IMG/VR virus record: IMGVR_UViG_3300046028_002158 | Coordinates: 1 to 21,132 of that record | Strand: one strand, 5' to 3' | DNA: 21,132 bases | From: a virus | Shown here: positions 1 through 5,378 of the stretch, piece by piece | How positions within the stretch are numbered: position 1 is the stretch's first letter | Layout: each line of letters opens with the position of its first letter | Made by a program: the position numbers and the translations under genes | The notes under the pieces: generated by a model | Databases searched by the model: none | Seen by the model: only the letters and a program-made list of their open reading frames with translations | What the model was told of the DNA's origin: nothing

Positions 1-1634
1 GATCCAGTAGATGATCTTGTCTCAAGAGGTGCGTATCTAAAGATTGGTTCCTTACTTGTCACTACACCTGCTGCGTGAATACCTGTACCACGGATGCGAC
101 CACGGAGTTGTTCTCCGTATACTTCTACTTCTGGATACTTTTCTCTAAACTCTCGTGTTGATTTTGAACTACAGAAATCGTCCCACGAGTCTACGGTTTT
201 TAAAACCTTGTTAACATCAGACAAAGGGATATTCAATACTCTTGAAACATCTCTAACAATTCCCTTGCCAGTAAACTCAAGGAATGTAGCGATAGATGCT
301 ACGTGTCGATACTGTCTAACAAGATAGTCTTTAACTTCTTCACGACGAGTATCCTGAATATCTGTATCAATATCGGGGAAGTCATTACGATCTGGATTAA
401 TAAAACGGAAGAACAAAAGATTATGCTCAATAGGATCAATGTCTGTAATATTTAATGCATAACAAACAAGAGAGCCAGCAGAAGAACCACGACCTGGCCC
501 AACCATGATCTCTTCTTTCTTAGCCCAGTTAATCATATTGCTTACAACAAGAAAATATGGGGCAAACTTTTTATCTTTAATAATCTGCAACTCTTCTTGA
601 AGTCTATCAAGGTACTCTTGGTTTTCTGATAGGCCTCTTTCTACCAAACCTTCAAGTGCAGCCTTAGCAAGTTCTTTGTCAGGACTCTTGTACTGTACTG
701 GCAAGAGGTTTAATCCTTCTTGAATGCCATAGTCTCCTACTGTGTCTGCTAATAAGAGTGTGTTTGAGTAGATGTCAGGTCTATCAATCCCCTGCAATTC
801 CATCGCTGCTTTAATCTCTTCATAAGATAACAGGTGGATATCAAACTTATTAAATGTAATCTGACGGTCTTCACCATAAAGATAGTCAAGACGCTCCATC
901 ATATTAGGCTTCTTCTTTGACTTCTCGTATGTTGCATCTTTTACAAACTTGCCATGTGTGTTCATAAGCAACTTGAACTCTTGAACCTCTTTTTGTGACG
1001 GATCAACGTGGTGGCAGTCTGGTGTAACAACAACCTTAACACTAAATTCATCCGCAAGTTCAATAAGATATTTATTAATTTGTGCTTCATTATGTGGCAT
1101 GACCTCAATGTAATAGTCTTCGCCAAAGCGCTCTTTAAACCAAGAGATGTACTTCTTAGCAATAGCAAACTCTTCTTCTTCTAATGCTTTAACCAATACA
1201 CTACTTGGACAAGCAGAGGTAACAATAATACCTTCTTTATACTTTTCCAATATAGTAAAATCAAATCGTGGCTTCTTGAAGAAACCATCTGTCCAAGATA
1301 GTTCGCTAATCTTATTTAAATTTTCCAAACCAATTTGATTCTTGGCTAGAAGGATAATGTGATTGTAGACAAGATCTTGTTGACCTTCTCTTTCAGACTT
1401 ATCTCGTGTATCAGATATGTCTGCACACATGTATCCTTCTAGACCTAGAATTGGCTTAATGCCCTTTGCTTTTGCAATACGGTGCAGTTCCCTATGCCCA
1501 GATAAAGTACCGTGGTCAGTGATGGCAATTGCTGGCATCCCTAACTCAACTGCACGGTCAACGTATTCTTCTGGAGTAGCAATCCCATCAAACAAACTAA
1601 AATGGGTGTGAACATGTAAGCCGACGTAGTTCAT
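1..1634 (-). CDS. dnaE: DNA polymerase III alpha subunit (C-family replicative polymerase), C-terminus cut by left window edge
   Basis: Catalytic subunit of a bacterial-type replicative DNA polymerase, which would copy the phage genome. About 544 residues are visible and the frame is open to the left edge. The N-terminal PHP domain opens directly with HVHTHFS (H7, H9), followed by D16, ITDHG (H41), E66, H92, SACPS (C142) and PDCHH (D206, H208). The palm follows, with PGRGSSAGS at about 380-388 and the aspartate cluster PDIDTD at 420-425. Near the edge comes GIHAAGVV, a typical DnaE motif. The ATG lies 1 nt past the SSB stop and has only a weak ribosome site, so translation is probably coupled. 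The start is secure because HVHTH begins at residue 7. The fingers, beta-binding and OB regions would lie outside the window. Confidence 0.93.
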   Translation of the reverse strand, partial: MNYVGLHVHTHFSLFDGIATPEEYVDRAVELGMPAIAITDHGTLSGHRELHRIAKAKGIKPILGLEGYMCADISDTRDKSEREGQQDLVYNHIILLAKNQIGLENLNKISELSWTDGFFKKPRFDFTILEKYKEGIIVTSACPSSVLVKALEEEEFAIAKKYISWFKERFGEDYYIEVMPHNEAQINKYLIELADEFSVKVVVTPDCHHVDPSQKEVQEFKLLMNTHGKFVKDATYEKSKKKPNMMERLDYLYGEDRQITFNKFDIHLLSYEEIKAAMELQGIDRPDIYSNTLLLADTVGDYGIQEGLNLLPVQYKSPDKELAKAALEGLVERGLSENQEYLDRLQEELQIIKDKKFAPYFLVVSNMINWAKKEEIMVGPGRGSSAGSLVCYALNITDIDPIEHNLLFFRFINPDRNDFPDIDTDIQDTRREEVKDYLVRQYRHVASIATFLEFTGKGIVRDVSRVLNIPLSDVNKVLKTVDSWDDFCSSKSTREFREKYPEVEVYGEQLRGRIRGTGIHAAGVVTSKEPIFRYAPLETRSSTG

Positions 1635-1635
1635 A

Positions 1636-2289
1636 TTACCAATCAGCGTTTGTTGCTGAAGTGGCAGATGGGCCATCAAAGCCCAAATAGAACGCTTCTT
1701 GTTCTGCGTATGGAACCTTGCGTAGTGCAGATTCTAGTGGGTAAGGCTTAATGTCTCCCCAGTTGAATGGCTCCTTGTCTGGTGCAGATGGAATTAGTGT
1801 GTAACTGGTTTCAGTTCCCTGTCCGTTACGCTTTAACTTCCACTGTACATTTGAGATGCTTCCTGTTTCAAGTGCATACTCACGAATTGTATTGAATGAT
1901 GATTGCTTGCTGACACCCATTGACCAGATTGCAACATATGGTGCTTCAATGCCGTCGTCTACTAGAACGTTGCAATAGAAACGAAGACGTGCTCTCCAGC
2001 CAGCCTTTGGATCCTTGCGGTGCATCTCTTCTGCCCAGTCACGACCTTCTGTATCCATTGTATCTACAGCCTTACGCTTGTAGTCCTTTGGGTTTGTGTG
2101 CTCTGATACAACAATTGCTAGACCACGCTCTGCATTATAGTTTGCTGAGTCTTCGTCAAGTTCTTCTAAAAATCTAATCTTTACAGATTGTCCATCTGCA
2201 ATTTTTAGCCACTTAACCTTTGGGCCATCGCCACCCTTTGGGCCATCTAGTATTGGACCCATTTCTTTGATTCCTCTTAGTATTGCCAT
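1636..2289 (-). CDS. Putative single-stranded DNA-binding protein (phage gp32-like)
   Basis: Probably coats single-stranded DNA at the replication fork. The 217-residue protein lies between primase and polymerase, which fits. After an N-terminal segment rich in Gly and Lys, residues 28-62 and 98-168 look like the beta strands of an OB fold, with a strand around FYCNVLV (104-110) and an aromatic/basic patch SNVQWKLKRNG (146-156). The C-terminal tail is Ser/Thr/Ala-rich and ends in NADW. That gives an acidic residue followed by a terminal aromatic, loosely recalling the acidic tips of SSBs but much less charged. The upstream purine stretch AAGAGAAAA is a poor ribosome site. The assignment rests on context and on my memory of similar actinophage proteins, not on a diagnostic motif. 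A non-SSB replication accessory protein remains possible. Confidence 0.55.
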   Translation of the reverse strand: MAILRGIKEMGPILDGPKGGDGPKVKWLKIADGQSVKIRFLEELDEDSANYNAERGLAIVVSEHTNPKDYKRKAVDTMDTEGRDWAEEMHRKDPKAGWRARLRFYCNVLVDDGIEAPYVAIWSMGVSKQSSFNTIREYALETGSISNVQWKLKRNGQGTETSYTLIPSAPDKEPFNWGDIKPYPLESALRKVPYAEQEAFYLGFDGPSATSATNADW

Positions 2290-2313: not shown

Positions 2314-3258
2314 TTAGTTTAGCATAGACTGTATTGATTTGTCAAACTGGAAATCCAGTTCTTTAATTGACTTATCGTCCATGTCGCCTATATCTTTATA
2401 TTCTTTATTTAGTTTGATTACGGATACACGAGAACCAAGTTTTTCAACTATCTTAGTTTTCATATTTCCACCTGCTTCATCGTTGTCCGCAATAACAATT
2501 ATATCATTAAAGTACTTTTGAAGCAACTCTATTTGTATGTTAGAAACATTTGATCCAAGTGTAGCCACAGCAGGAAGTCCTACTTGATCAAGCCTGATTG
2601 CATCAAAGGATGACTCCACAACATACACTGTCCCTGAACTTTTAACTCTGTGCAAATTAAATAAGGTTTTAGATTTTGGTAGGCCTGGAGTATTCTTAAA
2701 CTCTTTACCTTCAATAGATCTTCCAACAAAACCAATAGGCAAACCATCTGGACTATGGACTGGTACAGTTACCATATCTTGCTTTTCTGAATATCCTAAA
2801 GAAAACTTTGATGCTGACTCTTTGTTAATTTTTCTATAGTTAAAATAATTCTTTGCTCTTTCTGATTCAAGGAGATTGTTGTGCAAACGCTTAAGAACTA
2901 ATTCATCAAACATTGTAAACTCTGGTTTTTTGTATAGAGCCTTATCGATATCTGTTTCAATGCTTGTTTCTGTCTCTTTGCTTTTAATAAATCTTGCAGC
3001 CTCAAAGTATGTTCTATTAGACATATGCATAACAAATTCAATAAATCCAGTTACGTGGTGACAAGCAAAACAAAAGAAAGTTCCGCTATTCTTATCTATT
3101 TCTCCTGCTGGGGTTCTATTGTTATTATGGTATGGACAAAAAATAATATAATCTGAGTCAACCTCAGACTCAATCGTTACACCTGTTCCTGTGAGAACTC
3201 TTTTAATTTGCTCTTTTGTGTATAGATTGCCGTGCTTCCGTCTATTCCTGATATCCAT
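2314..3258 (-). CDS. dnaG: DnaG-type DNA primase (CHC2 zinc finger plus Toprim)
   Basis: Makes the RNA primers for phage DNA replication. The 314-residue protein is short for a DnaG family member and has no fused helicase; the DnaB-like helicase is a separate gene nearby. The CHC2-type zinc finger has C41-P-Y-H44 and C63-F-A-C66. The catalytic core holds YRKI...SLGYSE (about 141-157) and VGRSI (178-182). The Toprim fold shows VVESSFDA (E215) and IADNDEAG (D258, D260), the metal-binding acidic residues. Translating from this ATG meets no in-frame ATG, GTG or TTG before the zinc finger, so the start is well fixed even though it makes an 82-nt overlap with the gene before it. A GGGGAG sits 12 nt before the ATG, rather far for a ribosome site. 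Confidence 0.93.
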   Translation of the reverse strand: MDIRNRRKHGNLYTKEQIKRVLTGTGVTIESEVDSDYIIFCPYHNNNRTPAGEIDKNSGTFFCFACHHVTGFIEFVMHMSNRTYFEAARFIKSKETETSIETDIDKALYKKPEFTMFDELVLKRLHNNLLESERAKNYFNYRKINKESASKFSLGYSEKQDMVTVPVHSPDGLPIGFVGRSIEGKEFKNTPGLPKSKTLFNLHRVKSSGTVYVVESSFDAIRLDQVGLPAVATLGSNVSNIQIELLQKYFNDIIVIADNDEAGGNMKTKIVEKLGSRVSVIKLNKEYKDIGDMDDKSIKELDFQFDKSIQSMLN

Positions 3259-3530
3259 TCGCTTTGTTTTCTCCCCGTATATGTTCCGTGTACTGTTAGT
3301 TGAAATTCAAAATATTTTTTCTTGTGATTATAGTCTAGCGTAAAATCTGGAGTTATGTCAAGCCTTGGAACATATCCTGAAAGTCGCATCTCAGATTCAA
3401 GCAATCTGACATACTCCGCCTTAAGCCTACCAAGGGCTGACTCATCGTGGATAATCCCATCAAGATAGAACTTTTTGATAGGCCTATGGTGATAGAAGGT
3501 AGGAGGAATATTTTCCTTATTTTGCGACAT
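3177..3530 (-). CDS. Conserved phage protein of unknown function
   Basis: A 117-residue soluble protein without a signal peptide or membrane segment. I do not recognise a functional domain. The centre (about 38-60) looks helical and charged. The second half alternates polar and aromatic residues (FTLDYN, YFEFQLTVHG) and ends in YTGRKQSEWISGIDG followed by a Lys/Glu-rich tail. I recall similar YxGRKQSE...GxDG endings in small proteins of actinophage replication regions, which supports the reading frame down to its stop inside the primase gene. The ATG lies 5 nt after a TATAAT and 11 nt after the nearest AGG, so it may be translated from a leaderless transcript. An alternative frame starting at 3535 codes for nothing recognisable. 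A role in priming is suggested only by position. Confidence 0.7.
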   Translation of the reverse strand: MSQNKENIPPTFYHHRPIKKFYLDGIIHDESALGRLKAEYVRLLESEMRLSGYVPRLDITPDFTLDYNHKKKYFEFQLTVHGTYTGRKQSEWISGIDGSTAIYTQKSKLKEFSQEQV

Positions 3531-3535
3531 ACCAT

Positions 3536-3563
3536 ATTATACCTACTTATCTTTATATTTTAA
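3536..3563 (-). promoter_or_regulatory. Candidate leaderless promoter before the 117-residue gene
   Basis: The 35-nt gap is the longest in the window. Reading on the minus strand it contains TTAAAA (3563-3558, four of six bases of a sigma-70 -35 box), a 16-nt spacer and a perfect TATAAT (3541-3536). Only five bases separate the TATAAT from the ATG at 3530, so a transcript starting about seven bases after the -10 box would begin at or next to the start codon. The sequence is seen directly; promoter activity is inferred. Confidence 0.5.
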
Positions 3564-3565
3564 GC

Positions 3566-4156
3566 CTATTCAATTGGACCAGCAAAAGATGTGCCAATAG
3601 TATACCTTTCACCCCTGGTTACTGCATTTACCCCATGTTTTAATTGTCTTTTATAGTAAACAATGTCTCCGCTTCTTGGCTTATAGACAAAATTTCTTTC
3701 TGGAAAATAAATTTCCCCATTGTCATAATCATCGTTAATGTATACCATTACTATAAAACTATCACTTAGCGGGTGGTCATCGTTTATATCTTGATGCACT
3801 CCCATTGGGCCATAGTTCATTGTCAGTTTAGAAACAATTATGAAGTTATCTCCTATAGCGTCTCCATCTATCAACATTGCTTGCTTTACCTTGCTGATAT
3901 TTTTTCTTTTTAAAAAATCTATTAATGAATCATTCAGAAGATTATAAAAAATTGATCTTAATTCCATTGCAGCATAATTGTCTTTTTCATGAGTTACTGC
4001 AGGAAGTTCCATAGTCAGGTGAGGTCTTCTTTCAACCTTTTCTAACTTATGAGATCCTTCGCTAACCAAATTAATCAAATTAATTATATGGTCTGCATCT
4101 ATTTTATTTTCATAAATAGTTATAAAGTCTGTATCAAATTTAGGTGTTTGGTTCAT
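3566..4156 (-). CDS. 2-oxoglutarate/Fe(II)-dependent oxygenase (prolyl-hydroxylase-like)
   Basis: Predicted non-haem iron oxygenase that couples hydroxylation of an unknown substrate to decarboxylation of 2-oxoglutarate. Counting from the chosen start, the 196-residue protein carries the iron triad H121-Q-D123 and H174 (LKHGVNAVTRGERYTI), with R184 as the likely 2-oxoglutarate anchor. Strands YDNGEIYFPE (144-153) and PRSGDIVYY (160-168) match the double-stranded beta helix. The frame stays open to an ATG at 4207, but that start lies inside the helicase gene. The ATG at 4156 has GAGGA 8 nt upstream and sits 1 nt after the helicase stop, so I prefer it. Such enzymes are frequent in environmental phages. 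Their substrate here could be protein, nucleotide or DNA, and the sequence does not decide. Stop codon TAG. Confidence 0.85.
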   Translation of the reverse strand: MNQTPKFDTDFITIYENKIDADHIINLINLVSEGSHKLEKVERRPHLTMELPAVTHEKDNYAAMELRSIFYNLLNDSLIDFLKRKNISKVKQAMLIDGDAIGDNFIIVSKLTMNYGPMGVHQDINDDHPLSDSFIVMVYINDDYDNGEIYFPERNFVYKPRSGDIVYYKRQLKHGVNAVTRGERYTIGTSFAGPIE

Positions 4157-4169
4157 ATTATTTGTCCTC
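4157..4169 (-). promoter_or_regulatory. Shine-Dalgarno site that sets the oxygenase start
   Basis: GAGGA at 4169-4165 lies 8 nt before the ATG at 4156 and inside the last codons of the helicase gene. It favours this start over the in-frame ATGs at 4207 and 4171. Confidence 0.7.
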
Positions 4170-5378
4170 ATAATCTTTGTATCTGTAGTATCCTTTATCA
4201 AAATCAACCTGCACTAAGAAATCTCCCATAAATCCATTACGGTTCTTTCTAAAAGCACATTCAATTATATCACTATTGGATGCTCTACCTAAAGCAATAA
4301 CCCAGTCAGCATCATATGCAATCTGTCTTGACCAAGCAGTTTGTCCCAATGTTGGTACTCCACTAAGATCATTCACATCATCTGGTGTAGCAGATGAGAT
4401 AGCAATAATTGGAACCTCTTCACCAATAGCCATTAGTTTAAGTTCTCGTGAAAGGTTCTTCATTCGTACCGTTTCATTATCTGACTTCTGATTTGGAGCC
4501 ATCAACTGAAGGTAGTCAACGATTACAAAGTCTGGCTTGTACTGATCAATCTTTCCACGAAGAACAGAAGGATTAATTTCTCCACCTTGATCATTAGAAA
4601 TAATATGAAACTCTGGCTTGCCCTGTAAGTGCTTTGCATGCCAAGCCTTAAGAGTATCTAACTCTACATCTCCATTACTTAACTTGCGATGAGACCAAAG
4701 ACCTTCACCCATAATAGTAAATACACGATTGCGAACTTCTGTTTCTGACATCTCAAGCGAGATTACAAGGGGTGTCTTACCCTGTTTCCAGGCCTGTACA
4801 GCAAAGTATAGAGCCATCCACGACTTTCCTATACCTGGGTATGCTAAGAAGACTCCCAACTGCCCTGGCATAATTCCAGAAGGAAGGTAGTTATCAAACC
4901 CTGGAAGGTTAGTCTTAATACCAACATGACCTGCAGCCTGTTGTATCTTTAGATTTTCAAAGTAAGCAATCGCTGACTCAAGATCTGTAACATCAATGTC
5001 ACGGATTGCAGAAGTGTTTTTCTTTAATTCAGAGGTCTGTGTGATCAAATCATTTAGTGCAACAGTGCCTTGATTATTTTGAACATTGCCTGCTGCTGAT
5101 CTTAAGATATCTTTAAGGCTGTCATTTAGATACTCACCCTGCAACTCTTCAAGGTGGTGCTTTGTCGCTCCCACATTTGCTATAGGAGCAAAGTCTCTAA
5201 ACTTTTCTGTAACAAGTTCTGCGGGTGGAAGGGACTTATTGTTTTCAAAATACAACCTAATAAAATTCCAGATATCTCCGTGAGTTCTAAGAAGGTTATC
5301 AACATTGGCCTGTAAAAGTACGTGGATCTGTTTGTCTTGAAGAACTGCAGTAATTAGTTTGGACTCTGTATTATTCAC
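4158..5378 (-). CDS. dnaB: DnaB-type replicative helicase
   Basis: Hexameric helicase that unwinds the fork and recruits the primase. The 406-residue protein has a helical N-terminal domain (about 1-100) and a RecA-like ATPase domain. Walker A is AYPGIGKS (179-186), the catalytic glutamate lies in VISLEMS (E209), and Walker B is FVIVDYLQL (D288). Further on come a sensor-like stretch IAISSATPDD, then the downstream AWSRQIAYDADWVIAL, and a KNRNG near the C-terminus that resembles the basic finger of DnaB ATPases. Translation starts at GTG, not ATG, with a strong AAGGAG 7 nt upstream. The gene overlaps the preceding stop by 8 nt, which suggests coupled translation with the 102-residue protein. 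The length is slightly shorter than bacterial DnaB (about 450-470). Confidence 0.94.
   Translation of the reverse strand: MNNTESKLITAVLQDKQIHVLLQANVDNLLRTHGDIWNFIRLYFENNKSLPPAELVTEKFRDFAPIANVGATKHHLEELQGEYLNDSLKDILRSAAGNVQNNQGTVALNDLITQTSELKKNTSAIRDIDVTDLESAIAYFENLKIQQAAGHVGIKTNLPGFDNYLPSGIMPGQLGVFLAYPGIGKSWMALYFAVQAWKQGKTPLVISLEMSETEVRNRVFTIMGEGLWSHRKLSNGDVELDTLKAWHAKHLQGKPEFHIISNDQGGEINPSVLRGKIDQYKPDFVIVDYLQLMAPNQKSDNETVRMKNLSRELKLMAIGEEVPIIAISSATPDDVNDLSGVPTLGQTAWSRQIAYDADWVIALGRASNSDIIECAFRKNRNGFMGDFLVQVDFDKGYYRYKDYEDK

Follow-up and report, generated by a model that had tools for sequence, protein, structure and literature searches.

Between the genes for a DnaB-like replicative helicase and a small conserved protein, P117, the viral DNA analysed here (the window, a single virus record of 21,132 bases) carries a gene for a predicted Fe(II)- and 2-oxoglutarate (2OG)-dependent oxygenase. 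The explanation that we consider probable is that this gene is facultative cargo (a 'moron') lodged at a junction that accepts cargo, and that it encodes a hydroxylase of the prolyl-hydroxylase fold, most likely acting on a protein side chain. As far as sequence comparison and structural modelling reach, the insertion, the iron triad, the fold and purifying selection on the gene are established. In the scheme proposed, the gene would have been inserted between the stop codon of the helicase and a TATAAT box that possibly drives P117 and the primase, and it would be expressed with the helicase, probably being translated from a Shine–Dalgarno (SD)-like GAGGA in the last helicase codons. Its product is predicted to bind Fe(II) through H121, D123 and H174 and 2OG through R184, and to hydroxylate a side chain, prolyl being the first choice, on a phage or host protein. 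The position beside replication genes would then mark a junction that accepts cargo, and nearness to those genes should not be read here as function. The enzyme joins a large known pool of phage 2OG oxygenases, including 24 genes in cyanophage S-SCSM1, for which viral functions are described as not specifically investigated (PMC9602691). It thus belongs to a group already known; its place is odd, but simply explained.

The gene and its neighbours

The oxygenase frame opens with an ATG at 4156, 1 nt beyond the end of the helicase frame (Table 1). An alternative TTG would give a longer frame, 3566–4207, overlapping the helicase; the ATG is preferred because it and the 1-nt gap are constant in all 14 contigs in which the gene is present and its helicase side can be seen. 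The initial annotation was thus right about the frame and its spacing from the helicase stop. It also placed the gene between helicase and primase, which is correct as to the region, though not directly, as P117 stands between oxygenase and primase. Past the oxygenase, the order is P117, primase, single-strand DNA binding protein (SSB) and the start of DNA polymerase III alpha.

Table 1. Features of the window around the oxygenase gene
Feature	Position	Strand	Basis
Start of DNA polymerase III alpha (N-terminal part), truncated at the edge of the window	3..1679	-	profile matches
SSB, phrog_9721	1636..2289	-	PHROG match
DnaG-like primase	2314..3258	-	profile matches
P117, small conserved gene, 117 aa, phrog_17515	3177..3530	-	PHROG match
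Relic of ancestral helicase 3' end plus spacer, downstream of inserted gene	3531..3554	-	comparison with empty sites
TATAAT, possible -10 box of P117-primase genes	3536..3541	-	helicase-end comparison, box nearby in 72 of 76
Gene for a 196-aa Fe(II)/2OG oxygenase with a P4H/PHD-like fold, putative cargo of the helicase-P117 junction	3566..4156	-	ORF, profile, alignment, model, junction comparison
Run of seven codons (111-117) in the loop immediately preceding H121, each unlike L004 and L005	3806..3826	-	allele comparison, model
DnaB-like replicative helicase, upstream neighbour of oxygenase	4158..5378	-	profile matches
GAGGA, SD-like, inside last helicase codons	4165..4169	-	helicase-end comparison

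Compared with the alleles of three other contigs, the oxygenase gene has dN/dS values of 0.30 (against L005), 0.34 (L004) and 0.13 (L027, where dS is near saturation), which speak for a working gene rather than a chance open reading frame and, at the level of sequence, show it to be under purifying selection. The predicted pI of 5.5 is typical and says little, the median of 98 phage 2OG proteins being 5.2. The closest named relatives of the window helicase belong to Streptomyces phages, and a related contig (G020) carries a WhiB-like gene (L212), so an actinobacterial host is likely.

A derived insertion at the helicase-P117 junction

The replication genes of the window form a backbone that occurs without the oxygenase. 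In the Streptomyces phages Daubenski, Belfort and Coruscant (Stanwilliamsviridae), the same order is found, namely helicase, small gene, primase, a gene in the SSB position and a DnaE-like polymerase, except that in Belfort an additional HNH gene precedes the polymerase; unlike the window, all three lack an oxygenase at the junction, and their helicases are 37–38 % identical to that of the window. Among the 80 IMG/VR helicase loci listed as matches in a scan with the helicase alignment, P117 lies directly behind the helicase in 72, and helicases 98–99 % identical to that of the window occur among these empty-site loci. Two loci (L027 and L029) have at the junction an oxygenase 62 % identical to the window's. 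The remaining six comprise one with another cargo gene (L089), three with neither P117 nor oxygenase behind the helicase (L090, L091 and L093) and two cut by a contig edge (L071 and L085). The fraction of two in 80 is not a prevalence, since several near-identical contigs (L002–L009) lie outside the 80; when all scans are pooled, 15 contigs, the window included, have the oxygenase here, with the helicase side visible in 14 and the P117 side in 12. By these counts and the three Streptomyces phages, the oxygenase fails as a core gene of the replication module.

The junction itself records the insertion. At empty sites, the helicase end is GATAAGTAG; G- or T-TATAATATGGT comes next in most of them, ahead of the P117 ATG. 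In the window, AAAGATAAGTAGGTATAATATGGT lies directly 3' of the oxygenase gene and is followed by the P117 ATG; this relic is identical to the empty-site sequence in 11 loci, and the T variant is found in 26. L004, L005 and sites of the L027 type carry the relic with one change, GATAGGTAG. A copy of the old helicase end behind the oxygenase means that the empty site is ancestral, and sequence comparison hence shows the oxygenase gene to be a derived insertion.

The TATAAT within the relic is missing at four of 76 helicase ends (L089, L090, L091 and L093), and the same four lack P117. Absence of the box exactly where P117 is absent suggests a P117-primase promoter that was left intact by the insertion. 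As a promoter match, the arrangement in the window, TTAAAA-16-TATAAT (10/12), is weak by itself, because the region has 26 promoter-like sites where shuffling already gives a mean of 18.1 (SD 4.1). On the other side of the inserted gene, GAGGA is present at the helicase end in all 14 occupied sites as well as L089, whereas the 72 empty sites have GAAGA in 64 cases, GAGGA in five and neither in three.

The 3' end of the helicase may be seen as a junction where a passenger was gained in the window, a different one is present in another phage and one was possibly lost in others. In L089, the cargo is a 242-aa protein matching phrog_7084 (E 4e-39), a family also represented inside a 2OG array of L214 (E 1e-30). 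The DUF6065/phrog_7084 genes recorded (L089:4840-5565, L214:5960-6724 and L229:10485-11270) lie within 2OG arrays, except for the one at the helicase junction. Two of the five empty sites with GAGGA (L048 and L053) carry the old helicase end twice, one copy being relic-like and perhaps the scar of a lost cargo gene.

Catalytic residues and fold

The assignment to the 2OG-Fe(II) oxygenases, already made in the initial annotation, is borne out by PHROGs (phrog_61, E 4e-12; phrog 2297, E 6e-9) and by the fold. Curated 2OG/P4H profiles gave no match above cut-off; in Pfam, PF09859 reached 19.8 bits against a cut-off of 26.2 (E 6e-4) and PF13759 13.2 against 27 bits, and NCBIfam scores were far below their cut-offs. 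The HxD...H iron triad (H121/D123/H174) is present, and a 58-row MAFFT alignment of phage 2OG proteins shows no variation at H121, D123, N141, P160 or H174. This alignment comprises the window protein, L005, L027 and 55 ORFs out of 80 that were picked from the 275 matches in a set of 828; choosing rows as profile matches biases the sample in favour of intact enzymes. A local profile alignment made earlier, with 81 rows, has a gap at H121 in 43 of them and H in 34 of the 38 others. In the superfamily, the 2OG carboxylate is met by a basic residue some 10 positions beyond the distal His; here this is R184, in whose column of the 81-row alignment R occurs in 68 rows, K in 12 and a gap in one. The triad and R184, which had been described as intact, hold up in these alignments, and the conserved residues, together with the modelled fold, support the view that the protein is probably an active enzyme.

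An AlphaFold2 model (pLDDT 89.8, pTM 0.88, weakest at residues 95–102) and its structural matches point to a double-stranded beta-helix (DSBH) fold. The closest known proteins are the prolyl hydroxylases PBCV-1 vCPH (5c5t), Bacillus anthracis P4H (5hv0, 3itq), Pseudomonas putida P4H/PPHD (4j25, 4iw3), human PHD2 and P3H1. The top ranks of a Foldseek search against the PDB were P3H1, vCPH, Streptomyces PolD and B. anthracis P4H, with E values of 4e-8 to 1e-6 for the three prolyl hydroxylases. VIA-align 2 matched the overall fold of P4H/PHD catalytic domains, with PHD2 at Z 16.7 (176 residues, 2.9 Å), P. putida P4H at 16.5 (170 residues, 2.9 Å) and vCPH at 16.0 (160 residues, 2.9 Å). The window oxygenase differs from these enzymes in being only about 12–19 % identical to them and in having no Pfam 2OG model above cut-off. 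Of the families that the initial annotation had proposed for structural comparison, the prolyl hydroxylases lead both lists of matches. No virion-protein hydroxylase was found as an ortholog, a result that the initial annotation had named as one that would refute its reading. A protein hydroxylase is a first guess, as the fold alone proves no substrate. PPHD, which shares this fold and comes from a bacterium, is reported to act on EF-Tu (PMC4543633). Among the papers listed by a literature search of partial coverage, none was recognized as giving a substrate of a phage 2OG enzyme.

Like the phage oxygenases of PHROG 61 and 2297 (from cyanophages and uncultured phages), the window protein has the same catalytic residues; unlike them, it falls in a separate clade with an RPHLTM stretch, and it is 23–29 % identical to three of the cyanophage proteins. 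The PHROG 2297 label 'DNA endonuclease', considered as a hint at work on DNA, was set aside as a misnomer, since the members examined (L011 and L012) match Pfam 2OG-FeII_Oxy_3 above cut-off.

Divergence of the gene and its kin elsewhere

Synonymous divergence sets the oxygenase apart from its flanks in two of three comparisons, those with L005 and L027, and it is extreme in both. Against L005, dS is 0.71 for the helicase, 0.73 for the primase, 0.25 for P117 and 0.15 for the oxygenase; against L027, the values are 0.76, 0.78 and 0.51, with 0.24 for SSB and 1.91 for the oxygenase, values near 2 being saturated. This is as for a cassette exchanged between phages, although the neighbours also differ among themselves, so that the whole region is mosaic. 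A point against the cargo reading is the comparison with L004, where the oxygenase (0.12) is in line with P117 (0.10) and the primase (0.22). Within the gene, 30 of 196 codons differ from L005, and an even spread would give a run of seven such as codons 111–117 with a chance of roughly 4 in 10,000 (an estimate, 190 x 0.153^7). Exchange or selection on the mouth of the active site may possibly account for this run.

A subfamily scan returned 30 loci, 13 of site-bound types and 17 others (L221–L237). The fetched flanks of those 17 gave no match to the window's replication genes, a helicase of the window type was not found in 11 of their contigs searched whole (contigs that may be fragments), and at least two 2OG matches are present in 13 of the 17. 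In a quick tree with SH-aLRT support only and long branches flagged, the window protein, L005 and L027 group together (98) and form one clade with 12 other rows (SH-aLRT 92); L236 lies outside the clade, and the L237 match covers 74 residues only. One contig, G020, has both an empty helicase site (L070) and, at 17.7 kb, a distant member of the clade. Further 2OG matches occur in 12 of 27 helicase-relative contigs, 54 in all and at most 13 per contig; the large contigs G020 (118.8 kb) and G023 (113 kb) hold up to 13 and 10, partly in arrays. One profile scan of genome contigs, in which 27 stretches matched a pattern, confirmed no bacterial-genome relatives of the oxygenase.

In another phage lineage, a 2OG gene lies behind a DnaB-like helicase in four of 79 general 2OG loci, adjoining it in L101 and L123 and separated from it by one small ORF in L111 and L137; by eye, later genes of L101 resemble transferase and glycan genes. 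Our reading is that cargo tends to be received at helicase ends; these four loci are also the best point for a functional link, and since they could hint at one they speak against cargo. From the location, the initial annotation had drawn the suggestion that substrates might be DNA, nucleotides or replication proteins. That argument is not supported, given a gene order kept without the gene, the derived insertion with its relic, the discordant dS in two of three comparisons and outside kin that lie mostly among other 2OG genes. Its counter-prediction, random placement in relatives, largely describes what was found, apart from a constant place within one clade (15 contigs) and the four helicase-2OG loci.

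What the enzyme might modify

Against a protein substrate stand the small-molecule enzymes AviO1, AsqJ, AndA and PolD among the 50 Foldseek matches listed, and the lack of a Pro-rich target in the window. Those enzymes favour oxidation of a small molecule, sugar or glycan, as in decoration of envelope or virion glycans, with the gene belonging to 2OG-rich modification islands. An FkbM-methyltransferase-like gene adjoins the oxygenase kin in five of 14 subfamily loci (L221–L237 minus L227, L235 and L237); a Pfam run on three loci placed L224 above the cut-off and L221 and L226 below it, and a weak sulfotransferase match (phrog_3347, E 9e-5) lies beside L231. However, no FkbM- or sulfotransferase-like neighbour is present in the window and prolyl hydroxylases stand first in both fold lists, and we hold glycan or small-molecule oxidation to be unlikely.

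Hydroxylation of a replisome protein (helicase, P117 or primase), or some other tuning of phage DNA replication, would fit the 1-nt coupling to the helicase in every contig where it can be seen, as well as the four helicase-2OG loci. Yet nearly identical helicases work without the oxygenase in empty-site relatives, and the kin outside the site are, in their fetched flanks, not near replication genes of the window type. Replisome function from synteny was dropped as the lead after the locus counts, the junction relic and the divergence comparison, and we give it only a slim chance. Similarly improbable is a reading in which an early-expressed PHD-type enzyme, its active-site-mouth loop (codons 111–117) swapped between phage alleles, acts on an early-phase protein of host or phage, such as EF-Tu or the helicase; if true, the supply of oxygen and 2OG would tune infection. 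An AlkB- or TET-like oxygenase acting on phage DNA or nucleotides is very improbable and was dropped for want of profile support: the sub-threshold PF09859 match carries a Pfam description of action on damaged DNA, and DNA repair is, besides effects on host 2OG/nitrogen status, among the proposals for cyanophage 2OG proteins (PMC3037559), but no AlkB or TET/JBP Pfam profile matches at E up to 1, the prolyl hydroxylases lead both fold lists and AlkB and TET/JBP folds are absent among the Foldseek and VIA-align 2 matches listed, an absence that excludes nothing.

Proline-rich proteins in other 2OG loci

A virion substrate encoded next door to the window oxygenase was also considered and dropped, as neither the window nor the 17 loci L221–L237 contain a Pro-rich ORF; for the same reason, the association described below is not applied to the window enzyme. 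Pro-rich ORFs occur in 23 of 79 2OG loci (L096–L174), 15 of them with PPFFP/PPYFP-type repeats (L157 and L162 share the same repeat), and in four of eight array regions (including L213, L216 and L218), against none of the 80 helicase loci, which are a convenience control rather than a random one. One such protein, L214:2171-3439, contains fn3, matches Hint below threshold and also matches a virion-protein PHROG; its Hint part finds matches in five of 32 contigs, each of the five carrying 2OG genes, in a set where longer contigs hold more of everything. In these loci, hydroxylation of virion prolines is possible. The cyanophage members of phrog_2297, for example L250 and L251, lie near virion and tail-fibre genes in two cyanophages.
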